A stretch of DNA of 64,000 nt from Niallia alba. Its GTDB lineage: Bacteria > Bacillota > Bacilli > Bacillales > Cytobacillaceae. How positions within the stretch are numbered: position 1 is the stretch's first letter; every line of letters starts with the position of its first letter. The DNA lies in NCBI RefSeq assembly GCF_012933555.1, contig NZ_JABBPK010000001.1:1342001-1406000 (forward strand). The letters run 5' to 3'. Shown one piece after another: positions 5,763 through 59,312 of this stretch. The notes under the pieces were generated by a model, which saw only the letters and a list, made by a program, of their open reading frames with translations, had not been told where the DNA came from and searched no databases. The position numbers and the translations under genes are program-made.

Positions 5763-6405
5763 CCACAAATCACCTACTTTTCTGTTATCTATAAACATTA
5801 TGCCAATAAAACAAAAATTAATAAAGATAAAAATTAACAAAATTTTTAGAAATAAGAAATTTTGTTTAAAGTAAGCGCTTTAATGTATAAATATGTATCA
5901 ACCCGAATGGAAATCCCTTAAAATGTCTATAGATTTTAAGGGATCGGAAGAGAGGAAAAAAGAAGAATAAGCATTTTGTGTGTTCCAAAAAAGACGTAAT
6001 AGTAAAATCTAGAAAAATCATAAAAAAAAGAAGTGAATAAAAAATTAATTTTCACAAAAAGAGCAGCTAGGTAGAGTTAAGCAGAAATGGCATAAAAGAG
6101 AAATGAAAAATTATATGCGAATAGAAATTTAACATAATCGTGTAATGAAATATAACATGGAGAGAGAGGGTGAGGAGAAATAAAAAAATGGAGGATATTC
6201 ATGTTAGAAATCCTCCGTTTTTTATCTGCTATTCGATTGTTAAAGCATCATTCTTATCCCACTTTTAACGGACAGTAGACTCCCATCTCAAGCTTATGAG
6301 AATACGAGGAAGATAGGAGGGAGATCAACTGCCCGTAAAGGTCCGATTGGTTCAACTAACCATCAGTGGGGGATGAAGGAACCCCCCACTGATGGAAGTT
6401 TCACT
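5763..6405. other. Intergenic region between yhaH and scoC
   Basis: It holds repeat copy 1 (6253-6409), a bidirectional terminator (6182-6223), a palindromic hairpin at 5922-5943 (CCCTTAAAAT with ATTTTAAGGG), and an inverted repeat TTAAAG-N6-CTTTAA near 5868 in the likely scoC promoter area. AATTTTTAGAAATAA near 5841 is only a weak CodY-box resemblance (about 11 of 15). No gene is seen. Confidence 0.5.
6182..6223. terminator. Bidirectional terminator downstream of yhaH
   Basis: GGAGGAT pairs with ATCCTCC across a short loop, with A-rich sequence on one side and T-rich on the other, so it can work on both strands. On the minus strand it ends the yhaH transcript, beyond repeat copy 1. Confidence 0.75.
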
Positions 6406-6409
6406 TTAT
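6253..6409 (+). repeat. TTTAT-bounded structured repeat, copy 1
   Basis: Left boundary CTTAT, right boundary TTTAT. It shows the common parts: ACGGACAGT near the start, a CTC...GAG inner hairpin, GGTTCAACTAACC, and a perfect CATCAGTGGGGG/CCCCCACTGATG stem before the right end. The partner arm reads ACTGCCCGT, one mismatch. The right TTTAT supplies the stop codon of convergent yhaH. Confidence 0.92.
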
Positions 6410-6756
6410 TTTAAATCATTTTCTAACTCATTGATCGTAGATTGTAATTCATCAAGTTCCTTCTGAAGCAATTCTTGATGTGGCTTTACTTCTTCTTTCC
6501 ACGTTTCTAATGATAGCTTAAGATCTTCAATAAAAGTGCTAAATACGGTTTTACCCTCTACTGTGGCTGTTTTTACAGAATCTTTTATTTCATTTAAATC
6601 CAATTTTAGTTCTTGGATATGTTGAAGAAATGCTTTTCCATTTTCATTGCAGGCTTTTCTTACTTCTTTTCCTGAGTAAGGAGTAGTTAGTAAGGTAGTG
6701 ATTCCCGCTGCAATTCCTCCGATTAAAAATCCTGATAAGAATGATTTTGCGCTCAT
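6406..6756 (-). CDS. yhaH: YtxH-domain protein YhaH
   Basis: A 116-residue protein with one N-terminal hydrophobic segment (SFLSGFLIGGIAAGITTLLTTPYSGKEVR), the hallmark of YtxH/YhaH general-stress proteins, followed by a long amphipathic, probably coiled-coil tail (residues 35-116). GAGGTG lies 7 bases before the ATG. In B. subtilis yhaH lies between hpr and serC, as here. Its stop codon TAA is contained in the TTTAT (ATAAA on this strand) at the right end of repeat copy 1, so the element sits exactly at the gene's 3' end. Confidence 0.9.
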   Translation of the reverse strand: MSAKSFLSGFLIGGIAAGITTLLTTPYSGKEVRKACNENGKAFLQHIQELKLDLNEIKDSVKTATVEGKTVFSTFIEDLKLSLETWKEEVKPHQELLQKELDELQSTINELENDLK

Positions 6757-6847
6757 TTACTTACACCTCGCTCTTTTTTCCATCATTATAACGTATTCAA
6801 GCGATCATTACTATTTTTTAGGTTCTCCTCTTATACTTTGTCATAAG

Positions 6848-7930
6848 TTATTGATTTTTGCGTTGGAATTCCTTCATGAATTTAGTAAGCTCCATTACAT
6901 GTTCAAGAGGAACAGCATTATAAATGGAAGCACGGCAACCACCGACAGATCGATGTCCATTAAGACCAACAAATCCTGCTTCCTTTGCCTCTTGTAAGAA
7001 AGCCTTTGTGAGGTTTTCTGACTGTAAAGTAAAGGTAACGTTCATTTTAGAACGGCTTGTTTCTTCTGCATGACCACGATAAAAACCATTACTTTGATCG
7101 ATTACATCATATAAGTGTTTTGCTTTTTCATTATTGATGGCAGCAATTCCTTCCACTCCACCTTGTTTTTTTACCCATTTTAAGACAAGGGATAAAAGAT
7201 AAATTGCTAAAGTTGGTGGTGTATTGAATAAAGAATTATTTTTAGCATGTGTATGAAAACTTAACATGGTCGGTAAAGCAGCATCTTCTTTTATCAAATC
7301 TTTTCGAATAATGACGACAGTCACTCCAGATGGTCCAAGATTTTTTTGAGCACCTGCATAAATCAAGCCGAACTTCGAAACATCTATTGGAGTACTTAAA
7401 ATATCGCTGGACATATCAGCAATTAAAGGAACAGATACATTGGTAGGATAGCTGCTCCATTGGGTGCCATAAATCGTATTATTACTTGTAATATGAAGAT
7501 AAGCAGCATCTTTTGGTACTTCAATCTGTTCTGAATTAGGAATATATGAATAATTTTCATTTTTGCTTGAAATGGAAATAGCTGTATTACCAAGTTTAGA
7601 AGCTTCCTTTAATGCTTTTTCTGACCATATGCCAGTGAGTGCGTAATAGGCAGTTTGATTTTTAGGAAGCAAATTCATTGGGATCATCGTAAATTGAAGA
7701 CTTGCGCCTCCTTGTAAAAAAAGAATTTCATAATTATCTGGTATAGAAAGTAAAGATGTAAGGAGCTCTTTTGCTTCATTATGTACAGCCTCATAGTCAG
7801 CGCTACGATGACTTAATTCCATTAAGGACATGCCTGTATCATTAAAGTTCAACCAATGCTCCTTTGCTTCTTGTAGAACCCATTCTGGTAAAGCTGCAGG
7901 ACCTGCGTTAAAGTTATATGCTCTTTTCAA
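6848..7930 (-). CDS. serC: Phosphoserine aminotransferase
   Basis: A 360-residue class V aminotransferase. SerC catalyses 3-phosphohydroxypyruvate to phosphoserine in serine synthesis, and the matching step in pyridoxal phosphate synthesis. Family marks: FNAGPAALP at the start, GGASLQFTMIPMNLL, the PLP-lysine motif YAGAQKNLGPSGV, TPPTLAIYLL, and the C-terminal GLNGHRSVGGCRASIYNA. The start is TTG at 7930, supported by AGGAGG 8 bases upstream. It is transcribed alone, with a terminator-like hairpin for hit in the upstream intergenic. Confidence 0.97.
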   Translation of the reverse strand: MKRAYNFNAGPAALPEWVLQEAKEHWLNFNDTGMSLMELSHRSADYEAVHNEAKELLTSLLSIPDNYEILFLQGGASLQFTMIPMNLLPKNQTAYYALTGIWSEKALKEASKLGNTAISISSKNENYSYIPNSEQIEVPKDAAYLHITSNNTIYGTQWSSYPTNVSVPLIADMSSDILSTPIDVSKFGLIYAGAQKNLGPSGVTVVIIRKDLIKEDAALPTMLSFHTHAKNNSLFNTPPTLAIYLLSLVLKWVKKQGGVEGIAAINNEKAKHLYDVIDQSNGFYRGHAEETSRSKMNVTFTLQSENLTKAFLQEAKEAGFVGLNGHRSVGGCRASIYNAVPLEHVMELTKFMKEFQRKNQ

Positions 7931-8000
7931 CGTGCTTTCCTCCTAAATTAACTTGTTCAAATTGTAATGCGGTAAAGACAAAATGAATACCCTTATACTA

Positions 8001-8019
8001 ACAAATTCAGCTGATTTGT
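8001..8019. promoter_or_regulatory. Palindrome in the serC promoter region
   Basis: ACAAATTCAGCTGATTTGT is palindromic apart from one extra base. On the minus strand it lies just upstream of a TATAAG that could be a serC -10. It may be an operator; the regulator is unknown. Confidence 0.35.
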
Positions 8020-8025
8020 ACAGAT

Positions 8026-8074
8026 TAAAAAAACACCTTTTTTGAAAAAATTAGAATTTTTCAAAAGGGTGTTT
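8026..8074 (-). terminator. Terminator downstream of hit
   Basis: On the minus strand AAACACCCTTTTGAAAAATT pairs with AATTTTTTCAAAAAAGGTGTTT and is followed by more T. It lies 170 bases after the hit stop codon and before the serC promoter. Confidence 0.75.
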
Positions 8075-8245
8075 AGTAATTTTGTACTATTAAAAAAGTA
8101 TTTCCCCCAAGCTAAAAAATTTTGATTGTTGATAGGTAAGGGGGAAGGAATTAGTGGAATAGAATTGAAACTATTATTAAATAGCTTTTTGGAAAAAGTG
8201 AATTTTTTTAGAAAATTCTTTTGTCTCGGTATGTTTGGTAGGTAC

Positions 8246-8668
8246 TTATCTCACTTTTTCTTCAATTTTCTTCGCAATCTCTGTCAATTCTTCATTTGAA
8301 TATCCATCAAAGTTTGTTTTCCATACTGCGCCAAAACCATCACCTTTTCCATAACGTGGGATAAGATGCATATGATAATGGAAAACAGATTGTCCTGCTT
8401 TTTCGCCATTATTATTAAGGAGATTTAAACCAACTGGTTCATATGTTTCTTTAATTGCAGATGCAATGCTTGGCACGACTTCAAATAGATTGCTTGCAAT
8501 TTCAGGTGTTAATTCATAAATATCTTTCACATGTTGTTTAGGTACAACCAATGTATGTCCTTTTGTAACTTGGCTAATATCTAAGAACGCCATAACATGT
8601 TCATTTTCAAAAACCTTTTTAGACGGAATTTCTCCAGCCATTATTTTGCAAAAAATACAATCACTCAT
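8246..8668 (-). CDS. hit: HIT-family protein Hit
   Basis: A 140-residue histidine-triad protein. It begins with the zinc-binding CxxC of this subfamily (DCIFCKIMAGEIPS) and carries the triad FHYHMHLIPRY near residue 100. HIT proteins hydrolyse nucleoside phosphoramidates and related adenylyl conjugates. Start at the ATG at 8668, with AAGGAAGG 7 bases upstream; a longer start would overlap that site. It is divergent from ecsA, the same relation as in B. subtilis. Confidence 0.93.
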   Translation of the reverse strand: MSDCIFCKIMAGEIPSKKVFENEHVMAFLDISQVTKGHTLVVPKQHVKDIYELTPEIASNLFEVVPSIASAIKETYEPVGLNLLNNNGEKAGQSVFHYHMHLIPRYGKGDGFGAVWKTNFDGYSNEELTEIAKKIEEKVR

Positions 8669-9366
8669 AAAAATACCTTCCTTCATTATGTATTACCAAT
8701 ATTTTAACACAGGAGCTATTTTAGTGAACACCAAAAGGAAAGAGGGTGCCTAGTAAAGGCTGTTCTTACATGAATTGTCCAAGTAAGAAGTTTAAGCAAA
8801 CTCCGTACATTTCTGGCAATACATGTTAAGAAAACCTTGTTAGGACACCCTCTTATTGAAGGAGAGAACTTCTTCATGTTTTAGGGTTCTTCTCTTTGAT
8901 AAACACCTCATTTAAAAATGAATTGTTATTATGAGAAAAATCGATCATTGTTCAAACGAACCATCCCCTTAAAATGTCTTTATATGTTCAAAAACTTATA
9001 AAGAATGGATGACTGTCTGCGACAAACACCTCATTTCAAAGTGGAAATGATTTATAGGGCTGCTTTTGATAGAAAGCAACTTGGTGTTACTGATCTCATG
9101 TTTATATCTCGCTTATGCAAGGCAAACATCCCCTTTTAAAAACGAATGGAAGTTTATTTTAAAAGATCTTTATAGAATCTTTTGCAAACACCTCATTTAA
9201 TATTGGAGTTATACTGCAATATTCCTTTGGTGCTCCCCTTCAATAATTAGAATGTCCCCGAACTGAAATTAATATACAAAAGAATAAAAAATTTTTCTGT
9301 GCAATCATTTTTAATTAAAGAAGAATGTTGTTAAACTATAGATAATACATATTGGAGGTACAATAG
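8669..9366. other. Long hit-ecsA divergent intergenic with motif array
   Basis: Nearly 700 bases without a credible gene. It holds a long stem-loop (8741-8857) and an alternating set of two related motifs: RACAAACACCTCATTT-like (near 8898, 9021, 9184) and AACATCCCCTT-like (near 8957, 9122, weaker at 9228), most of them followed by a local hairpin. Possible reading frames are under 30 codons and lack spaced ribosome sites. The stretch must also contain the promoters of hit and ecsA. Confidence 0.55.
8741..8857. other. Long stem-loop upstream of hit
   Basis: GAGGGTGCCTAGTAAAGG near 8743 pairs with CCTTGTTAGGACACCCTC near 8838 with few mismatches. An inner hairpin TTCTTAC/GTAAGAA lies in the loop. 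There is no T run, so it is not an ordinary terminator; it could be a leader structure of hit or a small inserted palindromic element. Confidence 0.5.
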
Positions 9367-10107
9367 ATGGCATTATTAGAAATAAAAAATGTTACTGGAG
9401 GCTATACGAAGAATCCTGTTCTAAAAGATATTTCTTTTTCCATCAATAAGAATGAGATGGTTGGTTTGATTGGTTTAAATGGAGCTGGGAAAAGTACAAC
9501 AATCCGGCATATAATCGGGTTAATGGAGCCACATAAAGGAGAAATCCTTATTAATGGAAAGACGTTTGAGGGAGATAAAGAGGCGTATCGAAAAGAATTT
9601 ACCTTTGTACCAGAAACACCTATATTATATGATGAATTAACATTGGAAGAACATTTGAAGATAACGGCAATGGCATATGGTTTGTCTGAATCAGAATATC
9701 AAAAACGAATGGACGTACTATTAAAAGAGTTCCGTATGGAGAAAAGATTAAAATGGTTTCCTGCTCATTTTTCCAAAGGAATGAAGCAAAAGGTTATGAT
9801 AATGTGTGCTTTTCTAGTAGAGCCATCGCTTTATATAGTTGATGAGCCATTTGTTGGTTTAGATCCTCTTGGAATTCAATCATTATTAGACCAACTAAAG
9901 AAAATGAAGGAAAAAGGTGCAGGTATTTTAATGTCCACTCATATTCTTGCTACAGCGGAAAGATATTGTGACCGGATTATTATCATTCATGAAGGGAAAA
10001 TAAAGTGCCAGGGAACGATGGATGAGTTAAGGGCAGCATTTAATATGCCAGGTGCAACATTAGATGATTTATATATCCTTCTAACAAAGGAAGAAGAACA
10101 TGTTTGA
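9367..10107 (+). CDS. ecsA: ABC transporter ATP-binding protein EcsA
   Basis: A 246-residue ABC ATPase: Walker A GLNGAGKST (residues 36-44), signature FSKGMKQK (about 137), Walker B LYIVDEPFVGLD and switch His in MSTHI. In B. subtilis the EcsAB transporter is needed for secretion, competence, sporulation and site-2 protease (RasP) function; its substrate has been proposed to be peptide. Position after hit and overlap by 8 bases with an ecsB-type permease support the assignment. GGAGG lies 8 bases before the ATG. Confidence 0.95.
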   Translation: MALLEIKNVTGGYTKNPVLKDISFSINKNEMVGLIGLNGAGKSTTIRHIIGLMEPHKGEILINGKTFEGDKEAYRKEFTFVPETPILYDELTLEEHLKITAMAYGLSESEYQKRMDVLLKEFRMEKRLKWFPAHFSKGMKQKVMIMCAFLVEPSLYIVDEPFVGLDPLGIQSLLDQLKKMKEKGAGILMSTHILATAERYCDRIIIIHEGKIKCQGTMDELRAAFNMPGATLDDLYILLTKEEEHV

Positions 10108-11320
10108 ATTTAATGAAAAGCAACTGTGGAGAGCGCGAGCTGGACAAACAGCTAAAGAATATGGCCAATATTTAAAGTATATTTTTAATGGACATCTTGT
10201 CATTGTTTTAGTTTTTTTACTAGGAACTGCTGCCTACTATTATCAAGCATGGTTAAAAACGATTCCTAATGATTTTCCTGTTGCTCTTATCATGAGCTTT
10301 ATCCTTACTCTTTTTGTGACGAATAGCCCAACCTACACCTTTTTGAAGGATGCTGATCGAATCTTTTTAATTGCAGTGGAAACAAAAATGAAAAAGTATT
10401 TTCTGCAATCGATGATGGTTAGCTTTGTCATTCAAGGGTATGTACTGGTTATAATTCTTGCTGCTTTAATGCCATTATATGCGCAAGTACATGGCGGAGA
10501 TTTTAGTCAATTTTGGTATTTGCTTATTGTGTTACTAATTAGTAAAGGAGCTAATTTGCTGATTCGTTGGCATATTCAATACTATGTAAATGTTCGCTAT
10601 CATTATATAGACACGGTTGTGCGCTTCTTGATTAACTTAGCTATCCTGTATTTATTATTTGCCGATTCTTCTCCGCTTTTTATACTTGCTTTGCTCCTTA
10701 TCATGGCATTCTTGCTTATATATTTTCAGAAGGCAACTAGCAACAAAGGAGTAAAATGGGAATATTTAATTGAGCAGGATGAAAAAAGACTAGCATCTTT
10801 TTATCGTTTCGCTAATATGTTTACAGAAGTACCAAAGCTAAGAAACCGTATTAAACGAAGACGTTTTCTTGATGTATTGTTTAACCGTGTTCCTTATGCG
10901 AAAGAAAAAGTATTCACCCATTTATACTGGAGGACCTACGTTCGTGCAGGTGATTATTTCGGATTAACGATTCGGCTTACAGCAATAAGTGGAATTTTCA
11001 TCTTTTTCTTGTCTTTTGGACCTGGACAAGTATTCATAAGTGTATTGTTTGTTTTTTTAACAGGATTGCAGTTACTGCCCCTTTGGAATGCATATGATAA
11101 TAAACTGTGGATTACTATTTATCCGGTGGAATCTTCTTATAGAGAAAAATCATTTAAGCAAATTATGGCATCTATTTTAGGCTCCCAAGGGATTATTTTA
11201 TCTCTTATTATTGCCTCAAAAGGGGACTGGATGTATGCATTGATTTCTTTCATTGTAAATGTTGTTTTTATTATCTTCTTTGTGCTGTTTTACATAAATA
11301 AAAAAGTGAAAAACGGATAA
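10100..11320 (+). CDS. ecsB: ABC transporter permease EcsB
   Basis: A 406-residue polytopic membrane protein with about 9-10 hydrophobic segments and a conserved cytoplasmic stretch (SFYRFANMFTEVPKLRNRIKRRRFLDVLF) typical of EcsB. It is the membrane half of the Ecs transporter, translationally coupled to ecsA (8-base overlap). A hairpin terminator follows, after which ecsC starts 130 bases later, so ecsC may have partial readthrough or its own promoter. Confidence 0.94.
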   Translation: MFEFNEKQLWRARAGQTAKEYGQYLKYIFNGHLVIVLVFLLGTAAYYYQAWLKTIPNDFPVALIMSFILTLFVTNSPTYTFLKDADRIFLIAVETKMKKYFLQSMMVSFVIQGYVLVIILAALMPLYAQVHGGDFSQFWYLLIVLLISKGANLLIRWHIQYYVNVRYHYIDTVVRFLINLAILYLLFADSSPLFILALLLIMAFLLIYFQKATSNKGVKWEYLIEQDEKRLASFYRFANMFTEVPKLRNRIKRRRFLDVLFNRVPYAKEKVFTHLYWRTYVRAGDYFGLTIRLTAISGIFIFFLSFGPGQVFISVLFVFLTGLQLLPLWNAYDNKLWITIYPVESSYREKSFKQIMASILGSQGIILSLIIASKGDWMYALISFIVNVVFIIFFVLFYINKKVKNG

Positions 11321-11327
11321 TTGTGTC

Positions 11328-11377
11328 AGGAGCTTTAACCTTTGTGTGTTTATAGAAGGTACTGAGGCTCCTTTTTT
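11328..11377 (+). terminator. Terminator between ecsB and ecsC
   Basis: AGGAGC/GCTCCT with an inner AACCTT/AAGGT stem, followed by TTTTTT. It sits 8 bases after the ecsB stop. Confidence 0.75.
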
Positions 11378-11450
11378 GTGATTAGAAACAAAGAAAAAAG
11401 GGAACCATTCTTTCTATTGTACGTAAGAACAAGCATAAGGAGGAAGGGAA

Positions 11451-12176
11451 ATGAATGAATATGAACAAAGAGCTTTAGAAGAAGTAGAGGAGTGGAAACG
11501 TAAAATTCAAAAGCGTTCGTCCATTTTAAATAGAGTGTCTAAGAAAGCGCAAACCAAAATAAATTCTTATATACCAGACAAAGTTCACCAAACAATCACG
11601 GAAGCAATCAAGCAGATGATTCAAGCTACCTTAGCTGGCAGTAATATTATAAAGAAAAAGAATCCGCCTTTCTTCCATTCTTTACAAGGAAAAGATGAAG
11701 AGTTAACTAAAAAAATTAGTCAATACAAAAAAGTTGCTGTTGTGGAAGGAGCGGGAACAGGTGCTGGCGGGCTATTGCTTGGTTTGGCGGATTTTCCGCT
11801 GTTACTTTCCATTAAAATGAAGTTTTTAATGGAGGCAGCAACTACGTACGGATACGATACGGATCAATTAGAGGAAAGAATCTACTTACTGTATATTTTT
11901 CAGCTAGCTTTTTCGAGTGAAGAAAAAAGAAGAGAAACATTAGAGGTAATCGAAAATTGGGAAGAAGAAAGGCATAAAATTGCTTCTCTTAATTGGCAGG
12001 AGTTACAGCAAGAATATCGCGATTTTATTGATTTTGTAAAAATGCTTCAATTAGTACCAGGTATCGGGGCAGCTGTAGGTGCATACGCCAATTATAATTT
12101 AATGGATCAATTAGGAGAAGCAGTTAGAAACGTTTATCGCTGGCGCTATTTTCAAGAACAGAATCAAACAAAATAA
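11451..12176 (+). CDS. ecsC: EcsC family protein
   Basis: A 241-residue protein of the EcsC family (Pfam EcsC), recognised by the Gly-rich hydrophobic segment VVEGAGTGAGGLLLGLADFPLLLSIKMKF and the C-terminal VPGIGAAVGAYANYNLMDQLGE. Function is unknown; in B. subtilis it is the third ecs gene and less important than ecsAB. GGAGGAAGG precedes the ATG. The stop codon lies in the stem of a terminator shared with the convergent amidohydrolase gene. Confidence 0.92.
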   Translation: MNEYEQRALEEVEEWKRKIQKRSSILNRVSKKAQTKINSYIPDKVHQTITEAIKQMIQATLAGSNIIKKKNPPFFHSLQGKDEELTKKISQYKKVAVVEGAGTGAGGLLLGLADFPLLLSIKMKFLMEAATTYGYDTDQLEERIYLLYIFQLAFSSEEKRRETLEVIENWEEERHKIASLNWQELQQEYRDFIDFVKMLQLVPGIGAAVGAYANYNLMDQLGEAVRNVYRWRYFQEQNQTK

Positions 12177-12213
12177 ACGGAATGGGTTCATTAAGATGAA
12201 TCCATTCCGTTTT
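12175..12213. terminator. Bidirectional terminator between ecsC and the amidohydrolase gene
   Basis: AAACGGAATGG(G)TTCAT pairs with ATGAATCCATTCCGTTT. Runs of A and T flank it on both sides. It serves two convergent genes. Confidence 0.85.
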
Positions 12214-12225
12214 CCATTCGGAAAT

Positions 12226-13434: not shown

Positions 13435-13604
13435 CTCTTTCACCTCGTTTTACTATTTAGAATATTTTCATTATAGCATGGAAAAAGTAAGAAGATAGGA
13501 GAAAAGAGAGCAAAGTAAATACCGTTCATGTGAATTTTTCCTATCCTAATAAGGTTGATGTTGCTAAAATAAGGATAATATGGAATATCATTTAGGAGGA
13601 AATT

Positions 13605-18759: not shown

Positions 18760-18918
18760 TTTATTCCACACTTAACGGACAGTAAGACTTTGGCAGTAAG
18801 CTTAAGAGCATTTGAGGAAGAGAGGCGGGAGATCAACTGTCCGTAAAGGTCCGAATGATTCAACTAACCACCAGTGGGGGATGAAGAAGAACCGCCACTG
18901 ATGGAAATTTCATTTTAT
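18760..18918 (+). repeat. TTTAT-bounded structured repeat, copy 2
   Basis: TTTAT at both ends. This is the most diverged full-length copy (start TCCACACTTAACGGACAGT, end stem CACCAGTGGGGG/CCGCCACTGATG). The ACGGACAGT/ACTGTCCGT stem is intact. The right TTTAT contains the stop codon of the convergent hmoB gene. Confidence 0.9.
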
Positions 18919-19861: not shown

Positions 19862-20019
19862 TTTAGCCCACTCTTAACGGACAGTAAGACTCAACCGTAA
19901 GCTTATGAGAATACGAGGAAGCTAGGTGGGAGATCAACTGTCCGTAAAGGTCCGATTGGTTCAACTAACCATCAGTGGGGGAGGAAGGAAAACCCCCACT
20001 GATGGAAGTTTCACTTTAT
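19862..20019 (+). repeat. TTTAT-bounded structured repeat, copy 3
   Basis: Left boundary TTTAG, right TTTAT. Both long stems are perfect: ACGGACAGT/ACTGTCCGT and CATCAGTGGGGG/CCCCCACTGATG. It lies between hmoB and hemE. Confidence 0.93.
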
Positions 20020-22276: not shown

Positions 22277-22320
22277 ATGACAAAATTATTTTTTTCTTGT
22301 TATTATTATATTGTAAACGG

Positions 22321-22358
22321 AACCAAGTGATTTTTACGAAAATCACTTGGTTTCTTTT
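22321..22358 (+). terminator. Terminator after hemH
   Basis: AACCAAGTGATTTT pairs perfectly with AAAATCACTTGGTT across a four-base loop, followed by TCTTTT. Confidence 0.88.
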
Positions 22359-22401
22359 GTTGCAACAGATTTAACACTGTGATATATTCATTTTTGTACT
22401 A

Positions 22402-23266: not shown

Positions 23267-23414
23267 TTTATCCCACTCTTAACGGACAGTAAGACTCCCC
23301 CCTCAATCTTCTGAGAATACGAGGAAGATGGGGGGGAGATCAAAGGTCCGATTGGTTCAACTAACCATCAGTGGGGAGGAAGGAAAAGCCTCACTGATGG
23401 AAGTTTCACTTTAT
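23267..23414 (+). repeat. TTTAT-bounded structured repeat, copy 4
   Basis: TTTAT at both ends. It lacks about 11 bases containing the ACTGTCCGT arm (GAGATC runs straight into AAAGGTCCG), so the first long stem cannot form. The terminal stem persists as CAGTGGGG/CCTCACTG with a wobble. It lies between yhgD and yhgE, 20 bases before the yhgE ATG. Confidence 0.92.
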
Positions 23415-35206: not shown

Positions 35207-35580
35207 TTCGGATTTTTTTTAACATATTCTTTATATTTAGATAGTAATAGATGAATTAAAATGGAATAGTCAGGTAGAGTTATCCCACTCTTAACGGACA
35301 GTAAAACTCCCGCCTCGAACTGATGAGAATATGAGGAAGATCAACTGTCCGTAAAGGTTCGAATGGTTCAACTAACCATCAGTGGGGGAGGAAGGAAAAC
35401 CCCCACTGATGGAAGTTTCACTTTATTTTGTTCATTGAAATGCTATAAGTAAATTGTTTAGTTAGAAGAGGAAAGGTACAAGGAATCCTTACGTTTTTTA
35501 ATGGGATTCATTGAAACGAACTTAATTAAAAGAATACACATACGAAAAGATGCGTAAGTTATACAAGGGGTTTTGTGCTC
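35207..35580. other. LCP-yhjE intergenic with repeat copy 5
   Basis: Apart from repeat copy 5 the sequence is AT-rich and featureless. A yhjE-sip promoter presumably lies in 35440-35560. Confidence 0.5.
35279..35426 (+). repeat. TTTAT-bounded structured repeat, copy 5
   Basis: Left boundary GTTAT, right TTTAT. About 10 bases of the inner hairpin (the GGTGGGAG part) are missing, yet the outer ACGGACAGT/ACTGTCCGT stem and the CATCAGTGGGGG/CCCCCACTGATG stem are intact. Confidence 0.92.
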
Positions 35581-45051: not shown

Positions 45052-45209
45052 TTTATCCCACCCTTAACGGACTGTAAGACTCCCCCCTCAAGCTTATGAG
45101 AATACGAGGGAGAAAGGTGGAGATCAACTGTCCGTAAAGGTCCAATTGGTTCAACTAACCATCAGTGGGGGATGAAGGAAAACCTCCACTGATGGAAGTT
45201 TCACTTTAT
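45052..45209 (+). repeat. TTTAT-bounded structured repeat, copy 6
   Basis: TTTAT at both ends. The first arm reads ACGGACTGT (one mismatch to ACTGTCCGT). The final stem is CATCAGTGGGGG with CCTCCACTGATG, one wobble. It is inserted inside the gerP operon, antisense to the operon transcript. Confidence 0.93.
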
Positions 45210-45946: not shown

Positions 45947-45948
45947 AA

Positions 45949-50805: not shown

Positions 50806-50911
50806 ATCCCAGAGCGGAATAGAACATGAAGTAATTTCTTTGTTGGGTAAATCTAGTATCTAGTAGTGCAAAATCTGAGTAGATTTCAACTTACATATAC
50901 ACAAATAAGCC

Positions 50912-50942
50912 AAAGGGGGGATTTGGCCCAGAAATCCCCTTA
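50912..50942. terminator. Hairpin between the regulator and yitT-like genes
   Basis: AGGGGGGATTT pairs with AAATCCCCTT around GGCCCAG. It lies in a convergent gap and may end transcripts from both sides. Confidence 0.6.
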
Positions 50943-51782: not shown

Positions 51783-52316
51783 AAAAAAACCTCCAATAGA
51801 ACATAAAGTAAATGCTAAATCATTATCAAGTATAATAAAGGTAGCCGTTAATTCATAGGAAAAATTTTATCCCACTCTTAACGGAAAGTACGACTCGCCC
51901 TTCAAGCTTATGAGAATACGAGGAAGATAGGTGGGAGATAAAGGTCCGATTAGTTCAACTAACCATCAGTGGGGGAGGAAGGAAAACCACCACTGAATGG
52001 TTAGTTGAACTTTAGGAAGGGGAAAATTTACTTAGTACATATTGATGGAATAGGAAGAAGAAAAGAGGGATTACATTAGTACAGGTATGGTGGCAACAGG
52101 AAAGTTACTGTTACTTAAATTACTTGTGAACGATTCAAAGGATAGTATTTGCTTGGTGATATTTTAGGCGAATAATCGGGAATAAATGTGAAGAAATGAG
52201 AGGGATAGAGTAAACTCCCACTCATCATGTCGGAAGTGGGAGTTTCAAATATATCAATTTTTTACAAAGTCTGCTGCTTATTTAGGTAAAGATAAGCCAT
52301 TTTTCTTTTGAAAGAG
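51783..52316. other. Intergenic between the CNNM and YitT genes
   Basis: Contains degenerate repeat copy 7 (51866-52015), and a strong hairpin AAACTCCCACT/AGTGGGAGTTT (52212-52247) downstream of the CNNM gene without a clear T run. The rest is unassigned. Confidence 0.5.
51866..52015 (+). repeat. TTTAT-bounded structured repeat, copy 7 (damaged)
   Basis: Left TTTAT intact, right boundary TTTAG. It lacks the ACTGTCCGT arm, and the normal 3' end after CACTGA is replaced by ATGGTTAGTTGAAC, which is the reverse complement of the internal GTTCAACTAACCAT, so a small inversion or template switch has occurred. Confidence 0.88.
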
Positions 52317-53645
52317 TCATTTTTCTAAAGTATTGTTTGTTGGTGATTCTTCTTCGATTATTTTCGTTACTTTTATTTGGCTGATTCTGCGATCTACAAT
52401 CTCTTCTACTTGAAATTCAAAGTTTTTGAAAGTGATGGATGGTTTTTCCTGATCATTTGGAATATAGCCAATCTTACTAATGAGAAAACCACTTAATGTA
52501 TCATAAATTTCTATCGGCAAGGTAATTTTCAATAATTCTTGCACATCGTCTAAACTAATAGTCCCTTGCAATAGATAGGTATGTTCCCCGATAATCTTAA
52601 TTTCAGGAGGTTTTGGTTCATCGTATTCATCAAAAATATTGCCGACGATTTCCTCAACTAAATCCTCCATTGTAACAATTCCATCTGTTCCGCCATATTC
52701 ATCGACGACAATGGCAAAAAGAACATTATTTTTTTGCATCTGGATAAATAATTCATCGATTCTTTTTGATTCCAATACAAAATAAGGTTTGCGAATAATC
52801 TCACTTAATTGAAATGAGGTATCTTCTTTGCCCATATAGGCTAACAGATCTTTGGAATGTAGGATGCCAATAATGTTATCAATGTTTTCCTCGTAAACAG
52901 GGTAGCGAGTATACATTTCACGGTTCACTAGAGTAGCTATCTCCTTTAATGTGTAATCGGAAGGAATGGCTACCATATTGGAGCGATGGGTCATAATATC
53001 CGTGACATTTTTATTATCAAATTCAAAAATATTATGGATCATCATTCGCTCATCTTCGTCAATACTTCCTCTTTCATTTCCTACATCTATCATCATTTTT
53101 ATATCTTCTTCTGTTACTTCCTCATCTTCCTCACCTGGACGTACTCCGAATAGGCGTGCAACTAGATTGGTGGAGAATGTTAAGAAGGCGACAAATGGTG
53201 CTGTTATTTTGGAAAGTACCGTTAATGGACTTGCAGCAAACATCGCAATACCTTCTGCTTTCTTTAAAGCCACTCGTTTAGGAACTAATTCACCAAAAAC
53301 AAGGGTGAAATAGGATAACAGTAGAGTAATAATAATGACTGAAATAGAATCAAGCAGTCCTTGAGAGAGAGGAATTCCCATTGTTAAAAATAACTCTGTC
53401 AATTGACCAGAAAAGCTATCAGCTGCAAAGGCACTGGCTAGAAATCCTGCAAGGGTAATACCAATTTGGATGGTGGCTAAAAATTTACTAGGCTCTGATA
53501 GTAGTTTATAGACTATTTTAGCTTTCTTATGACCTGTGTCCGCCATATGTTTAATTTTATTGTCATTTAAGGAAATGAGCGCAATTTCTGCGGCAGCAAA
53601 GAAAGCATTTAATGCAATTAGAATGACTAGGACTAAAATGCCCAA
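52317..53645 (-). CDS. CNNM/CorC-type hemolysin-family membrane protein
   Basis: 442 residues: N-terminal CNNM (DUF21) domain with four membrane helices (LIALNAFFAAAEIALISL), two CBS domains (MTHRSNMVAIPSDY and IRKPYFVLESKRIDELFIQMQKN, with IVVDEYGGTDGIVTMEDLVEEIVGNIFDE) and a C-terminal CorC_HlyC domain. Such proteins are linked to magnesium export or homeostasis (MpfA/YhdP group). TTG start with AAAGGAG 8 bases upstream. Single gene. Confidence 0.92.
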   Translation of the reverse strand: MGILVLVILIALNAFFAAAEIALISLNDNKIKHMADTGHKKAKIVYKLLSEPSKFLATIQIGITLAGFLASAFAADSFSGQLTELFLTMGIPLSQGLLDSISVIIITLLLSYFTLVFGELVPKRVALKKAEGIAMFAASPLTVLSKITAPFVAFLTFSTNLVARLFGVRPGEEDEEVTEEDIKMMIDVGNERGSIDEDERMMIHNIFEFDNKNVTDIMTHRSNMVAIPSDYTLKEIATLVNREMYTRYPVYEENIDNIIGILHSKDLLAYMGKEDTSFQLSEIIRKPYFVLESKRIDELFIQMQKNNVLFAIVVDEYGGTDGIVTMEDLVEEIVGNIFDEYDEPKPPEIKIIGEHTYLLQGTISLDDVQELLKITLPIEIYDTLSGFLISKIGYIPNDQEKPSITFKNFEFQVEEIVDRRISQIKVTKIIEEESPTNNTLEK

Positions 53646-53840
53646 ATCTTTCAGCTCCTTTCCGAGAGATTATCTTCTTTATGTTTTACCCTTTTTAAGG
53701 GAAAGTATGCTTTTTGCCAATTTGCTGTAATTTTCAATAAGAATAAAAAATATATGACCTGAGTCATTTTATTTTTGGAAAAAAATGACCTATAGGTATA
53801 GGAATCGAGGTGTATTTTCATTATTCTGTATATAGAAAGG

Positions 53841-54782
53841 ATGATGACCTTGTTAGAGATAATGAATTTATCTAAATCATTTAAACAAAAACAAGCTGTA
53901 AATTCCGTTAATTTATATTTAGAGAAGGGAGAAATAGTAGGATTGCTTGGACCAAATGGGGCTGGGAAATCTACTACAATCTCCATGATATCTTCGTTAA
54001 TTGCTCCCGATGTTGGAGATGTAAGACTAAATAACGAAAGTATTTTAAAAACACCACAGACATTACGAAAAATACTTGGAGTAGTCCCACAGGATATTGC
54101 TGTTTATCTGGATTTATCTGCACGAGAAAACTTACTTTTCTTTGGAAAAATGCACCGAATCCCTAAAAATATACTACAAAAGAGGGTAGATGAAGTTCTT
54201 GAAATAATCGGTTTAAAGGAGCGGGAAAAGGATTTAGTGAAAACTTTTTCCGGTGGGATGAAAAGAAGATTAAATATTGGTGTTGCATTAATTCATGAAC
54301 CAGAAATTATTATTATGGATGAACCAACCGTTGGAATTGACCCCCAATCAAGAAATTACATTTTAGAAACCGTTAAAAGGCTAAATAAAGAAAAGCAAAT
54401 GACTGTCCTATACACCAGTCACTATATGGAAGAAGTCGAATTTCTTTGTGATCGCATTTATATTATGGATCATGGTGAAATTATTGCTTCTGGCGCGAAA
54501 GAGGATATAAAAAACATCCTCTCCGCAGAAACTGCCATTAATATTAAGGTGGAAATAGTAAAGCATGAATTTACAGAAGCACTCCGCCATCATAAAAATA
54601 TTAAAAATATCTCCATTCAACAATCAGTAATTACTGTAATCGTGCCACGACAAGTTCATTTACTGAAAGATATTTTGCGAATTGCCGAAGAGCAGAAAAC
54701 AAATGTACTCTCTGTCCATATTGAGACACCTACTTTAGAAGATGTTTTCTTGCATTTAACAGGTCGTCAATTAAGGGATTAG
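53841..54782 (+). CDS. ABC exporter ATP-binding protein
   Basis: About 313 residues of the NatA/CcmA-like DrrA group: Walker A GPNGAGKST, signature FSGGMKRRLNIG, Walker B IIIMDEPTVGIDPQ, and a C-terminal extension. The start is uncertain: AAAGG favours the TTG at 53850 over the ATG codons at 53841 and 53844. The two following permease genes form an operon with it. Substrate not predictable; such systems often export antibiotics, peptides or sodium. Confidence 0.9.
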   Translation: MMTLLEIMNLSKSFKQKQAVNSVNLYLEKGEIVGLLGPNGAGKSTTISMISSLIAPDVGDVRLNNESILKTPQTLRKILGVVPQDIAVYLDLSARENLLFFGKMHRIPKNILQKRVDEVLEIIGLKEREKDLVKTFSGGMKRRLNIGVALIHEPEIIIMDEPTVGIDPQSRNYILETVKRLNKEKQMTVLYTSHYMEEVEFLCDRIYIMDHGEIIASGAKEDIKNILSAETAINIKVEIVKHEFTEALRHHKNIKNISIQQSVITVIVPRQVHLLKDILRIAEEQKTNVLSVHIETPTLEDVFLHLTGRQLRD

Positions 54783-54793
54783 GAGGGTACCAT

Positions 54794-56047
54794 ATGCTTT
54801 GGCAAATGATAAAGAAAGAATTATTGATGATTTGGAGAAGACCACGGGAACTAATTGTATTACTGCTTATGCCATTTGTACTCATAACTATTCTTGGAAG
54901 TGCTTTAGGGGCATTGAATAATAATGAAGAGGTAGAAGTGACTGCAAAGCTCGCTGTTGTAGTGGAAGATGAAGCAGACCAAGCACAACAACAAGTAATA
55001 GAGAAAATTAGACAGTCTAATGCAGCCGAACAGAAAAAAGCAGCTAACATAGCGCTTATTGAATCCCTTGAACCGATAAACATATTTATTAATGTAGTAG
55101 GAAAGAGTCCAGAATTAAAGAAAGTTCTATCTATCACCGAATATCGGAACATAAAAGAAGTGAAGGAAAAAGATTATGACGGTGTGTTACTTATTCCAGA
55201 AGGCTTTACTACTAAATTTTATAATAATCTTTTAGAAAAAAACACAACGATTCCGGCGTGGATCCTAAAGACAAAGGATGAACAATCCCTTCGTGCAACC
55301 ATTATCCAAGATATTATTACAAATTATCAAAAAGAATGGGTTTATCAAAAAACAGCACAAGATCTTCAAATTGATTATTCCGCATTAGTAAATACAAACA
55401 TATATGGACAAATTGAGAATATTGAAAAGAAAAAAGAGATTAGTGCTTTTGCTTATTATGGAGTGGGAATGTGTGTCATGTTTGTGTTCTATATTTCTAC
55501 AACCGTAGCGGGTTTTGCTTTTCAGCAAAAGGAAGAGCTTATGTATGAGCGAATCTTATTAGCAAATGTTCCAAAAATCGTATTTTTTACTGGCGTTTTT
55601 ATGGCAGCATTTATATTATCTTTATTACAATTAACGATTTTATTTAGCTTAACAGCATTGATTTATGGAGTAGTCTTTCCTAGTATAATCAATCATTTAT
55701 TCGTAACTTTGACTGTGAGCATAATGGCAGCAACATTCGCCACATTTACTACTGCGGTTGCTTTTGCTACTAATTCACGAAATGTGGAAAGTATTTTTTC
55801 GTCTCTCATTGTTCCGATCCTAGCTTTTATTGGCGGCAGTTTTTTCAATGTGAGTGCAATTGGCGGATTTATGGAAACATTAGGTGAATATTCTCCTGGG
55901 GGAGCTGCGCTTACTGCGTATTTAAAAGTATATCAAGGGTACTCCTTAGGGGATATATGGAGTCAGCTAAGAGCAATTCTTTTGTTTTCTGTTCTTTTGC
56001 TTTTACTTAGTGTAGTTACCTTGAAGAAAAGAGGAGGGATACGATGA
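54794..56047 (+). CDS. ABC-2 exporter permease, first subunit
   Basis: 417 residues: a membrane anchor near residue 25, a large outer domain (residues 45-215) and five C-terminal helices with an ABC2_membrane_3 pattern (ISTTVAGFAFQQKEELMYERILL). GGAGGGT precedes the ATG, 11 bases after the ATPase gene. Overlaps the next permease by four bases. Confidence 0.87.
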   Translation: MLWQMIKKELLMIWRRPRELIVLLLMPFVLITILGSALGALNNNEEVEVTAKLAVVVEDEADQAQQQVIEKIRQSNAAEQKKAANIALIESLEPINIFINVVGKSPELKKVLSITEYRNIKEVKEKDYDGVLLIPEGFTTKFYNNLLEKNTTIPAWILKTKDEQSLRATIIQDIITNYQKEWVYQKTAQDLQIDYSALVNTNIYGQIENIEKKKEISAFAYYGVGMCVMFVFYISTTVAGFAFQQKEELMYERILLANVPKIVFFTGVFMAAFILSLLQLTILFSLTALIYGVVFPSIINHLFVTLTVSIMAATFATFTTAVAFATNSRNVESIFSSLIVPILAFIGGSFFNVSAIGGFMETLGEYSPGGAALTAYLKVYQGYSLGDIWSQLRAILLFSVLLLLLSVVTLKKRGGIR

Positions 56048-57138
56048 ATGCAGTACTATGGGGGAAATGCAAGAAATTTATAAGAAAGCCAAGCGGATTT
56101 ATTATAACCTCCCTTATCTGTATCGTATTTGCTTATTTAGTCGGGATCTCTTCCTTTACAAAAGTAGAGGTGCCAATTTTCACTGATCAGTCGACGAAAG
56201 CAAATAACATTTTAAAGGATTTGAATAAAAGTGAGAGTTATTCGTTTGTTTCATATACAGAAGAAGAAGTAAAGGAACAATTGGCAAAAGGGGAAGCAGA
56301 TGTAGGGGTATCGATAAATGCAGATACTTATACGATCTTTAAAATAGCCGTAACTGCCAATGTATTAATGGTGCAAAATTTTCTTCAAACCTATTATGGT
56401 TATATGCTGAAGGAAGATGCATTATTAAATAATGCAGCGGATAAAGAAGAAGCAAAAAGGGTGCTTATAAGTAATAAAGAAACGCCAATTATTCCGGTAT
56501 CAAATGAACAAACTTTATCAGAAAAAGAAGCGACTTATAATCAGTCACTCCAGTCGTTATTTGGATTTACTTTATTCTTCTGTATTTATACCATTTCATT
56601 TACGGTAATAGAGATACTAAGAGATAAACAAAATGGAATATGGGATCGTTTTATCTTATCCTCTACGTCGAAAGCCCAAATATATTTAGGACATCTAGTA
56701 TTTAGCTTTTTCATAGGATACGCACAAATTATTATGATCTTTCTTCTTTTTAAATATGGATTAAATATTGATTTTAATGGAAATTTTTATTTGGTGTATG
56801 TACTAATCATTCCATACTTATTTTCCATCGTGGCATTAACGATTCTCCTTACAGGTCTTGTTAAAACACCAAGCCAGTTCAATGCCATTATTCCACTTGT
56901 ATCAGTTAGCTTTGCTATGCTTGGCGGAGCATATTGGCCAATTGAAATCGTTACATCGAAAGTAATGCTTCTTTTATCTAAATTTATTCCCATTACTTAT
57001 GGAATGGAGCTATTAAAAAAAGGGATTATTGAAAGTGCCTCATGGATGGACATCATGGTTCCAGCAGGAATTCTTTGTTTAATGGGAACGATTATGCTAG
57101 GCATCGGCATTCAGCTTATTGAAAAAAGACATGTGTAA
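56044..57138 (+). CDS. ABC-2 exporter permease, second subunit
   Basis: 364 residues with the same ABC2_membrane_3 layout as the preceding permease (EILRDKQNGIWDRFILSS, AMLGGAYWPIEIVTSKVMLLLSKFIPITYGMELLKKG). The two likely form a heterodimer with the ATPase encoded at 53.8 kb. ATGA overlap with the previous gene shows translational coupling. Confidence 0.87.
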   Translation: MNAVLWGKCKKFIRKPSGFIITSLICIVFAYLVGISSFTKVEVPIFTDQSTKANNILKDLNKSESYSFVSYTEEEVKEQLAKGEADVGVSINADTYTIFKIAVTANVLMVQNFLQTYYGYMLKEDALLNNAADKEEAKRVLISNKETPIIPVSNEQTLSEKEATYNQSLQSLFGFTLFFCIYTISFTVIEILRDKQNGIWDRFILSSTSKAQIYLGHLVFSFFIGYAQIIMIFLLFKYGLNIDFNGNFYLVYVLIIPYLFSIVALTILLTGLVKTPSQFNAIIPLVSVSFAMLGGAYWPIEIVTSKVMLLLSKFIPITYGMELLKKGIIESASWMDIMVPAGILCLMGTIMLGIGIQLIEKRHV

Positions 57139-57231
57139 AAAAATGTTATGATGGAATATTTCGAAAAAATAAAAAACGGTGTATAATAAAGGAAATAGAT
57201 TCCAAAATTGATGAGGAAGGAGCTGAAACAC

Positions 57232-57514
57232 TTGATACGAAAAATAGTTAAAGGATATTTATCCCACTCTTAACGGGCAGTAAGACTCCCCCCTCAAGCT
57301 TCTGAGAATACGAGGAAGATAGGTGGGAGATCTACTGTCCGTAAAGGTCCGATTGGTTCAACTAACCATCAGTGGGGGGGGGAAGGAAACCCCCACTGAT
57401 GGAAGTTTCACTTTATATGTGGTTGTTCTGCCTCTTACCTTATTAATTTCTGTTATTTTTGAGCCAAGTGGTAGCCTCGTGCGATTAACGAATGACACTA
57501 TTAGAGATATGTAG
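57232..57514 (+). pseudogene. Small membrane protein gene interrupted by repeat copy 8
   Basis: TTG at 57232, with AAGGAG 9 bases upstream, opens the frame MIRKIVKGY. The repeat then brings a stop. Deleting the repeat and one TTTAT (57258-57411) restores an uninterrupted 42-residue frame: MIRKIVKGYLYVVVLPLTLL then a polar end finishing NDTIRDM. It has one membrane helix. At present a GTG inside the repeat could start a chimeric 63-residue product carrying the native C-terminus. Function unknown. Confidence 0.75.
57258..57416 (+). repeat. TTTAT-bounded structured repeat, copy 8
   Basis: TTTAT at both ends. The hairpin loop of the last stem has gained G residues (nine G in a row). First arm ACGGGCAGT shows a wobble-compatible change against ACTGTCCGT. 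It lies inside a small gene. Confidence 0.95.
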
Positions 57515-57568
57515 TAAGTAAAAAAGGTAGTTAAATAAGTATCTGTCTGTGGAAGGCAGGTACTTATT

Positions 57569-57750
57569 TATGGAGATAAAGGATATGGAACAGCAGCCCT
57601 TTTAACATTGGGAAAATACGTTCAAACTTTAGGTGCAAAGAAACTTTCATTACATATACTTGGACATAATACAAGAGCTATTCATCTGTATCAAAAAAAC
57701 TAAACTTTCAAATAACAGATTTAGTAATGAGCAAAAATGATAAGGGGATT
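57569..57750 (+). pseudogene. Remnant of a GNAT acetyltransferase gene
   Basis: The frame GDKGYGTAALLTLGKYVQTLG, KKLSLHILGHNTRAIHLYQK is the acetyl-CoA-binding half of a GNAT enzyme (R/Q-x-x-G-x-G/A region followed by the N-x-x-A-x-x-L-Y-x-K end). There is no N-terminal half. A run of seven A (57693-57699) should be eight: adding one base restores KLNFQITDLVMSKNDKG. So it is truncated and frameshifted. Confidence 0.75.
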
Positions 57751-57753
57751 TGC

Positions 57754-58231
57754 ATGAAAAGTATCTATATAATTTTAGCAACTTTAACAGTCGAAACATT
57801 GATAATATGGTTTGCATCCTATTTATTAGGATGGAACTTTACCCCACTCTTAACGGACAGTAAGACTCCCCCCTCAAGTTTATGAGAATACGAGGAAGAT
57901 AGGTGGGAGATCAACTGTCCGTAAAGGTCCGATTGGTTCAACTAACCATCAGTGGGGGTTGAAGAAAAACCCCCAATGATGGAAGTTTCACTTTATCGAC
58001 ACCATCTTATTAGGCAGTCTTTTGCTTTTTGGAATTGTTTATCTTTTTCGTCTATATATTCATCAAACCAATGCAACCTTCAATGCAAACATTGCCGGCT
58101 GGACATGGGAGGAAGCTGGAATTGGTCCTTTTCATTTCCGGATTTCGCCAATAATTATTGGACTTATTTTATTTATCGTTATTAGTATTCTCGTTACCTT
58201 TATTACCTACTATCGTTATTTTTTCGATTAA
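57754..58231 (+). pseudogene. Membrane protein gene interrupted by repeat copy 9
   Basis: ATG at 57754, GGGG ribosome site upstream. The first 28 codons read MKSIYIILATLTVETLIIWF then ASYLLGWN; the repeat follows. Removing 57838-57991 joins WN directly to FIDTILLGSLLLFGIVYLF and gives an uninterrupted 107-residue protein with about three helices, ending TFITYYRYFFD. I do not recognise the family. A TTG at 58022 could allow expression of the last 69 codons, but no good ribosome site is present. Confidence 0.78.
57838..57996 (+). repeat. TTTAT-bounded structured repeat, copy 9
   Basis: Left boundary TTTAC, right TTTAT. The first stem is perfect; the last stem has one mismatch (CCCCCAATGATG). 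It interrupts a membrane protein gene in frame-restorable fashion. Confidence 0.95.
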
Positions 58232-58394
58232 GAATGATAGGAAAAATGGTATACAACAATGGTTATATAAATAAGCTTGAGAGGATGCGAAGATATGAGA
58301 TTACTGGAACATGAAATATAAAATCATTATTGCAGAGGCCCTCCACTATCCACTATCTTTTGTAGGAAAAGAGAAAATAGAGGAGGAATAAAAA

Positions 58395-59156
58395 GTGAAA
58401 GATTCAAATTTTCATAGGTATTTAGAGGAAATAAACGAGAAGTTTGAAGGCTGGGATTTTTCGAGCATCTATGATACAGGGAGAATCCAAAACAGCCTGC
58501 TTTCCTGGTCTTATGGTAGTAAAGTGATCTCCGCAATGCAGGGAGCTACTGCTATATTGGATATGGGTACTGGTGGCGGAGAGTTTCTTTCTCTATTAAA
58601 GGGGTACTATCCACCAACCGTCTATGCAACAGAAGGCTATAAACCGAATGTACCGATTGCGAAAAGGAAGTTAGAACCTTTAGGAGTCAAAGTATATGAA
58701 GTTGTTGATAATGAGCATTTGCCGTTTCCAGATAATCACTTCGACTTAATAATTAACAGGCATGAATCATACTCTGTAAAGGAGTTAAAAAGGATAATAA
58801 AGACGAATGGAATCTTTATCACCCAGCAAGTAGGTGGCTGGGATTGCAAGGAGTTAAATGACTGGTTTGGAGTTGCTGTTAATTCTGAATTTAAGGAGTG
58901 GAATCTTCAATCAGCTCTCAAGAATTTTTCTATTGACCAATGGGAGATTCTAGAGCAAAGAGAGGAGTTTCCTACACAGCGATTTTATGACTTGGGCTCA
59001 GTTCTTTTCTATTTAAAAGCGATTCCTTGGCAAATTCCAGATTTTAGCGTAGAAAAATACCAAGATGCATTGTATCGGCTTTATCAGCATTTAGAAGAAG
59101 TGGGATACTTGGATGCTACCCAATCTCGCTTTTATATGAAGGTAAAATGTAAATAA
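58395..59156 (+). CDS. Class I SAM-dependent methyltransferase
   Basis: 253 residues with a Rossmann-fold methyltransferase domain: motif I AILDMGTGGGEFLSLL (about residue 55), the acidic end of strand 2 in VYATEGYKPN, and motif IV region FDLIINRHESYSVKELKRIIKTNG. GTG start with GAGGAGG 8 bases upstream. The small-molecule or RNA substrate cannot be predicted. A terminator follows. Confidence 0.87.
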   Translation: MKDSNFHRYLEEINEKFEGWDFSSIYDTGRIQNSLLSWSYGSKVISAMQGATAILDMGTGGGEFLSLLKGYYPPTVYATEGYKPNVPIAKRKLEPLGVKVYEVVDNEHLPFPDNHFDLIINRHESYSVKELKRIIKTNGIFITQQVGGWDCKELNDWFGVAVNSEFKEWNLQSALKNFSIDQWEILEQREEFPTQRFYDLGSVLFYLKAIPWQIPDFSVEKYQDALYRLYQHLEEVGYLDATQSRFYMKVKCK

Positions 59157-59172
59157 ACGAGAATAATAACAG

Positions 59173-59214
59173 AAACTCAGTTAGAAGCCTTAAAGGCTTT
59201 TGCTGAGTTTTTTT
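59173..59214 (+). terminator. Terminator after the methyltransferase gene
   Basis: AAACTCAG pairs with CTGAGTTT and AGCCTT with AGGCT inside; TTTTTTT follows. The T run supplies the TTTAT at which the degenerate repeat relative begins. Confidence 0.85.
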
Positions 59215-59312
59215 ATCCCACTTTTAACGATCCAGCTCAAGATTTGGTCGAAAAGCTAGGTGTTGAAACTCGCGGGGAATGAGGAAAAAGCCCTGCTAAT
59301 GAAATTTTTCTT
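59212..59312 (+). repeat. Degenerate relative of the TTTAT-bounded repeat (copy 10)
   Basis: After TTTAT the sequence CCCACTTTTAACG matches the repeat's start; then similarity is lost, with only fragments such as GCTCAAG, AAGCTAGGTG, and a weak end CTGCTAATGAAATTTTTCTT recalling CACTGATGGAAGTTTCACTT. Probably an old or rearranged copy. Confidence 0.5.

Follow-up and report, generated by a model that had tools for sequence, protein, structure and literature searches.

The repeat bcr1 is described as a TTTAT-associated mobile element specific to the Bacillus cereus group, present in 11 to 130 copies (PMC6542083). A published table gives its size as 147-167 bp (PMC2267715), it has been characterized as similar to a miniature inverted-repeat transposable element (MITE) and as partly transcribed (PMC3446304), and 57-63 copies are reported for B. 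cytotoxicus (PMC8725734). Insertion sequences of the IS200/IS605 family are described as having neither terminal inverted repeats nor target duplication, inserting 3' of a tetra- or pentanucleotide and being linked to the lagging-strand template (PMC7290912, PMC6006769); the lagging-strand link is not universal, with 10 of 22 being leading (PMC7290912). Repetitive extragenic palindromes (REPs) are given as palindromes of 20-40 bp (PMC3733652). Here we describe a repeat unit of about 154 bp, without a gene of its own, that recurs in a stretch of 64,000 nucleotides of the Niallia alba genome (contig NZ_JABBPK010000001.1, positions 1,342,001 to 1,406,000; hereafter the window), and compare it with these systems.

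The element is a gene-less mobile element, since sister species lack it at every window position tested. We consider it probable, at roughly 60%, that it is a non-autonomous single-strand transposon that is IS200/IS605-like in its working. This reading is favoured because hairpins take the place of inverted ends, the right TTTAT is steadier than the left pentamer, and the orientation goes with the replication fork. The gene-less elements derived from IS200/IS605 (MITEs and palindrome-associated transposable elements, PATEs) resemble it in that no inverted ends are seen, a hairpin lies near each end, the left pentamer is fixed, there is no sign of a true target duplication and orientation is fork-linked. 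It differs from them in that these ends were not found on any IS200/IS605 element and in that both ends are TTTAT, so that units can stack head to tail. Membership of the IS200/IS605 family is unproven; the element would work like an IS200/IS605 MITE. It is ordinary in kind, a mobile gene-less repeat, and unusual in the strength of its replication link, the breadth of its range and its missing enzyme.

In the mechanism that we propose, the + strand of the unit as read would be exposed on the lagging-strand template and form two hairpins, one left and one right. A trans-acting enzyme, whose class is most likely HUH/Y1, would cut 3' of the left TTTAT-like pentamer and 3' of the terminal TTTAT, free the strand between the cuts and join it 3' to a TTTAT-like pentamer in another lagging-strand template. 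The left pentamer would then be the old target and the right one would travel with the element, and the TTTAT pair would mimic a duplication for that reason. The empty sister sites, the target, the fork orientation and covariation without an excess of G-U pairs were observed directly; from these we infer the single-strand intermediate, the cut positions and the enzyme class.

Empty sites, ends and arrays

The element was absent from sister species at all six window copies tested, and a single pentamer-like site was left at five of them. For the copies at 6253-6409, 18760-18918, 19862-20019 and 23267-23414, all 16 comparisons with four sister species gave alignments of the joined flanks that run through the insertion site. 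A pentamer-like site, with variants, was seen at three of these four; at 18760 the join was gapped, with no clear pentamer remaining. Copy 6253 is bounded by CTTAT on the left and TTTAT on the right, and copy 23267 has lost part of the 3' arm of its left hairpin. The left TTTAG of copy 19862 is probably a later mutation, as the four sister species have TTTAT. At the two remaining copies, 57258-57416 and 57838-57996, both flanks abut in sister genomes with an overlap of 3-5 bases (BLAST against 13 genomes of the genus). Read directly, the empty site of copy 57258 is one TTTAT in genomes G300 and G308 and TTTAG in G299. The empty site of copy 57838 is TTTGT in G302, and the copy itself has TTTAC on the left and TTTAT on the right.

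Copy 57258 illustrates the anatomy of the unit on the + strand. The TTTAT at 57258-57262 appears to be the target and older than the insertion, judging from the sites in G300, G308 and G299. It is followed by the left domain, the CCCACTCTTAACGG... hairpin (57263-57353, bounds approximate), whose structure was counted on an alignment of diverse copies (A1). The right domain (57356-57411, bounds approximate) consists of the hairpin AACT(AA)CCATCAGTGGGGG / CCCCCACTGATGG(A)AGTT and a TTTCAC tail. The closing TTTAT at 57412-57416 is probably part of the element, as suggested by the left/right asymmetry and the array junctions described below. By eye on A1, no terminal inverted repeats were seen; there is a hairpin near each end instead.

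Base preference in the N. alba genome was limited to the five left bases. The 20 bases before and the 15 after were near background (at most 0.13 bits) with sharp boundaries, in a profile whose regions were mostly picked by the right end. Among solo copies sampled by the inner motif, 32 of 47 in the N. alba genome had TTTAT on both sides, 12 deviated on the left only and 3 on the right only (p 0.035). The corresponding numbers in other species were 36 of 45, 7 and 2 (p 0.18). Combined, this gives 19 left-only against 5 right-only deviations (sign test about 0.007, our own arithmetic). Deviation on both sides was found in none of the copies in these two samples and in one copy of a wider N. alba sample. 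The counts allow two bases of register and exclude array members (18 of 65 in N. alba, 3 of 48 elsewhere) and copies with ends that could not be aligned to within four positions. Among the twelve N. alba left variants, TATCC and GTATT may be register slips. Recurring left variants were TTTAC, TTTGT and NTTAT. A count of 19 left-only versus 1 right-only was set aside, the regions having been picked by a pattern that included the right TTTAT. Altogether, the right TTTAT appears to behave as a part of the element, on numbers that are modest. An earlier note on this DNA had the units flanked by TTTAT or a one-base variant; the TTTAT bounding stands, with the correction that the left side is variable and the right less so. 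Within the window, the left pentamers are CTTAT, TTTAT, TTTAG, GTTAT and TTTAC, and the right TTTAT varies less.

Eight arrays of 3-8 full-length units each were found in the N. alba genome, and adjoining units had one TTTAT in common at 32 of 32 flagged junctions. Such head-to-tail stacking would follow from target and right end being the same pentamer. Units were 97.5% alike within arrays and 89.7% between arrays. The most divergent full-length unit was the 3'-most one, in the element's direction, in seven of the eight (370315, 628123, 1976727, 1997775, 3063928, 4053948 and 4070539). In array 4422221 it was an inner unit; a sixth unit at the 3' side of that array has lost its right end and was excluded from the ranking, its identity of 87-88% including sequence past the break. 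This polarity may reflect insertion of new units at the left TTTAT of a copy already present, or else amplification of the upstream unit.

Double-strand site-specific recombination or cut-and-paste, with the unit left between 5-bp TTTAT repeats as proposed for bcr1, would also account for the 32 of 47 and 36 of 45 solo copies with TTTAT on both sides, and head-to-tail arrays with a common TTTAT are likewise expected from site-specific recombination. We regard this explanation as unlikely. None of the 19 left-deviating copies also deviates on the right in the inner-motif samples (one does in the wider N. alba sample), inverted ends were not seen by eye, and such recombination alone leaves the orientation with the fork unexplained.

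Orientation with replication and fold of the unit

Counting each array once, 73 of 82 sites in the N. alba genome point with the replication fork (p 1.4e-13). The replication end was assumed at the middle of the 5,233,187-bp contig; of the nine exceptions, two are no more than 8 kb away from this point. In the fetched regions and the window, all ten bins between 0.25 and 2.75 Mb had a positive GC skew and all nine between 2.75 and 5.0 Mb a negative one. When only exact right ends were used, 66 of 72 sites pointed with the fork with the terminus at 2.635 Mb, and 65 with the terminus at the middle. Open reading frames of at least 120 codons, called by a simple script, served as neighbouring genes. 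Where the two neighbours have opposite directions, 24 of 25 sites point with the fork and one against it; between two genes directed with the fork, 44 sites point with it and five against, and of the four sites without a neighbour on one side, three point with it and one against. Orientation thus follows replication more than transcription. Single-strand jumping is suggested because the element mostly faces the way the chromosome is replicated. In other genomes, among the matches listed, 8 of 9 places in G080, 5 of 6 in G067 and 4 of 5 in G244 point with the fork if the contig start is the origin and replication ends half-way.

Alternatively, the element might be a polar motif that organizes the chromosome, similar to KOPS, with its orientation maintained by selection rather than by insertion; the bias does extend over both replichores. 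This is very improbable: the distribution is patchy, with no inner motif in six of the 13 genomes of the genus, the insertions are absent from sister species, and genome-specific subfamilies were found in all three genomes compared.

The fold was examined on the 28 diverse copies of alignment A1. A structure of 41 pairs was formed in 94.3% of cells, and 13 of the 41 pairs had two-sided changes, a count that is inflated by kinship among copies. None of 500 shuffles matched these pairing and covariation values, and slid controls reached at most 10 pairs and 52% of cells. Unaided, RNAalifold proposed 31 pairs, ten of them with two-sided changes, with a covariation term of merely -0.31. The covarying stems that the earlier note had asked for were thus recovered across genera, and its view of a dedicated, structured, high-copy element is supported. 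Of its three recurring stems, the outer and right stems held up; GGTT/AACC, which pairs in 96.4% of cells, has zero two-sided changes and gains no support from covariation. An additional AACT/AGTT pairing extends the right hairpin beyond the right stem and has one compensated change, in locus L072.

If the element functioned as RNA, G.U pairs would be expected to be far commoner than A.C mismatches in its stems. After removal of duplicate and antisense rows (127 to 107 in the N. alba genome, 94 to 83 in other species), the model stems contained 133 G.T versus 98 A.C in the 107 N. alba rows (p 0.025) and 35 versus 44 in the 83 rows from other species. As a control, the tRNAs of the fetched loci (33) gave 47 G.T and no A.C, a result that ARAGORN's own scoring favours. 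We read this as pairing that is probably selected at the DNA level, and the understanding of the repeats as structured RNA is disfavoured.

The functional form could still be RNA, either a structured transcript that spreads through reverse transcription or an RNA that acts in cis within untranslated regions. Insertion of retroelements can also prefer the lagging-strand template. The unit folds strongly as RNA (z -5.6 versus shuffles), its stems covary, the N. alba copies show a slight excess of G.T, and bcr elements are described as partly transcribed (PMC3446304). Against this stand the G.T and A.C numbers in other species and in the tRNA control, an orientation that tracks replication more than transcription, and the outcome of the Rfam search, with no match at the gathering score within the window. 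We consider an RNA form improbable.

Candidate enzymes and related repeats

The N. alba genome contains ten Y1 matches; going by score and length, eight of these were labelled IS200-like and two RAYT-like. TnpB-type matches number three. A profile search found no repeat near these Y1 and TnpB loci. In 16 copy-bearing genomes, 3 of 30 Y1 loci have an element match nearby, which is no consistent linkage and a count made without a chance expectation. Eleven of 30 unpaired partial matches (17 right, 13 left) were read, and these were decayed, short or elongated gene-less copies. No transposase was assignable, and Y1 genes do not track with copies. The enzyme class is suggested by anatomy and orientation rather than by a gene.

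Several observations weigh against IS200/IS605-like transposition. The asymmetry between left and right ends is modest. Between two genes directed against the fork, two sites point with the fork and two against it, and genome G171, with the origin placed at the contig start and the replication end half-way, fits the fork orientation poorly (5 of the 8 best-scoring places compared). The small N. alba excess of G.T over A.C speaks mildly for RNA. No Y1 was matched in sister genome G306, which contains 23 inner motifs; in G304, Y1 is present and the motif is missing; and in G104, where six copies are 96.5% alike, there are Y1 fragments only. This mismatch is not decisive, because both G104 (about 40 contigs) and G306 are draft assemblies, and an old age is suggested by the 77% likeness among the copies read in G306. 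Furthermore, no relative with a gene between these ends was found in the 162-165 sequences scanned for left-only and right-only matches, 11 of the 30 unpaired ones having been read, and no guide sequence could be demonstrated.

REPs with their TnpA-REP (RAYT) enzyme resemble the element in being dispersed, palindromic, repeated and probably moved in trans. They differ in size, the present unit being about 154 bp, and RAYT-like Y1 genes (labelled by score and length) were not found in the copy-bearing sister genomes G303 and G306. Assignment to the REP/RAYT system was rejected, as the unit is too long compared with 20-40 bp and does not co-occur with a RAYT-like gene.

The likeness to bcr1 covers TTTAT ends, mobility, structure, high copy number and size, and the remark in the earlier note that size and flanking pentamer resemble bcr1 agrees with the published descriptions (TTTAT, PMC6542083; 147-167 bp, PMC2267715). 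The two differ in range, bcr1 being, by published description, limited to the B. cereus group (PMC6542083) whereas the present element occurs across Bacillales genera. Judged from published descriptions, kinship with bcr1 is likely and serves as a lead. The plasmid matches included no B. cereus-group record, in a collection in which the number of such records is uncounted. The family of genome G068, considered as a route to the B. cereus group, comprises two genomes and is uninformative on bcr1. A string search of a library of papers found none that prints the element strings searched for; three papers matched, solely by 'Bacillaceae-1 RNA'. A wider proposal, in which the copies form a Bacillales-wide family of gene-less single-strand transposons, with bcr1 perhaps its B. 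cereus branch, an enzyme outside the known Y1 transposases, and arrays growing from the 5' side, is tentative and on balance doubtful.

Rfam leaves the element unnamed in the window, though many copies occur in genomes across Bacillales. If single-strand transposition is correct, the way in which TTTAT-flanked repeats such as bcr1 move can be put to a direct test through single-strand excision, and there should be an enzyme acting in trans to look for. Sharp predictions come from the link to strand and fork, from the target and from the polarity of the arrays.

Copies in the window, the genome and the order

With the copy at 6253 as query, blastn against the window gave nine + strand matches, itself included, at the positions listed by the earlier note. 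In addition to the six copies described above, these are at 35279-35426 (left GTTAT), 45052-45209 and 51866-52015; the last has an altered right end, with GGTTAGTTGAACTTTA as the hairpin foot. An unfiltered covariance scan of the window recovered the same nine at E <= 8e-24. The model was built partly on copies 18760, 23267, 35279, 45052 and 57258, and the independent matches are 6253, 19862, 51866 and 57838. The scan also found the decayed tenth copy at 59212-59315 on the + strand (19.4 bits, E 0.0046) and 18 extra weak matches, mostly palindromic echoes of the known copies on the - strand. The nine copies and the decayed one were therefore correctly placed. Calling them nearly identical was right as to a repeat family and too strong as to degree, since identity to the first copy is 82-92%.

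Copy 57258 lies 3' of its TTTAT and interrupts a short frame. Read by eye, this frame (window 57200-57470) has about 42 codons, a guessed TTG start and a hydrophobic product, and it reads through in three sister species. Weak matches on both strands to microRNA families, below the gathering score, at window 3745-3807 and 22308-22368 are probably palindromes.

Allowing up to one mismatch, the right-end motif has 136 occurrences in the 5.24-Mb genome (63 forward, 73 reverse), far more than chance would give, its reversed control having 0 forward and 0 reverse. This bears out the expectation of many further copies. The inner motif has 162 occurrences, some palindromic copies being counted on both strands. 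From 80 fetched regions and the window, 147 matches and 113 full-length copies were read. The window is locally richer in copies than the genome average, and nine copies per 64 kb cannot be extrapolated, given genome-wide counts of 136 right-end motifs and 162 inner ones. The very high genome load deduced from the window was thus right about a high copy number and too high as an extrapolation.

The covariance model (E 1e-5, strict filters, at most the best ~10 matches per genome) detected the element in 97 of 299 genomes of the order, N. alba included, and in 56 of 117 genera. Confinement to a single clade, which the earlier note had considered, does not hold. A pattern scan of species genomes gave at least 119 stretches; the 80 listed came from many Bacillaceae genera and a few others, e.g., a Paenibacillus record. 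Hosts among the matches listed included Cytobacillus, Neobacillus, Niallia, Metabacillus and Heyndrickxia. No match to the element was found in phages. The likeness of copies within a genome was 96.5% in G104 (six copies) and G250 (seven), 93.9% in G080 (seven), 87% in N. alba (74 solo copies), 83% in G303 (ten) and 77% in G306 (eleven).

Some copies are elongated. In 14 of the 26 elongated copies scanned (six others lay outside the scan), the left and right domains are separated by the Bacillaceae-1 RNA of Rfam (RF01690). Loci bearing RF01690 are L052, L059, L064, L071, L074, L100, L104, L128, L135, L137, L141, L150 and L153. It is additionally present inside the right hairpin in L150, and in L124 it lies within the insert on the other strand. 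With 146 of 299 genomes carrying it, N. alba not among them, RF01690 is a high-copy repeat in its own right, often nested in other repeats. It is a repeat separate from the present element, of which 23 of 30 RF01690 loci examined contained no match. Because RF01690 is a high-copy repeat that is often nested in others, its label as a small RNA deserves a second look. Four elongated copies (L069, L087, L130 and L133) carry a different insert, in which the motif is CATCGCACGAAGAAAAAG or closely similar to it; Rfam gave no match there.

Klebsiella as a host was rejected, since the record in question resembles Bacillaceae DNA. This record, CP079755.1 (pNY3A; L041, L367), is filed as Klebsiella grimontii and has AbrB/SpoVT, S-layer homology and DUF2325 genes of Bacillaceae type; it bears a short form of the element (<100 bp) and is probably misassigned. 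A short form is also present in Cytobacillus citreus (L106:1717-1792), where it lies directly 5' of the apparent start of a 16S rRNA gene, as judged by eye.

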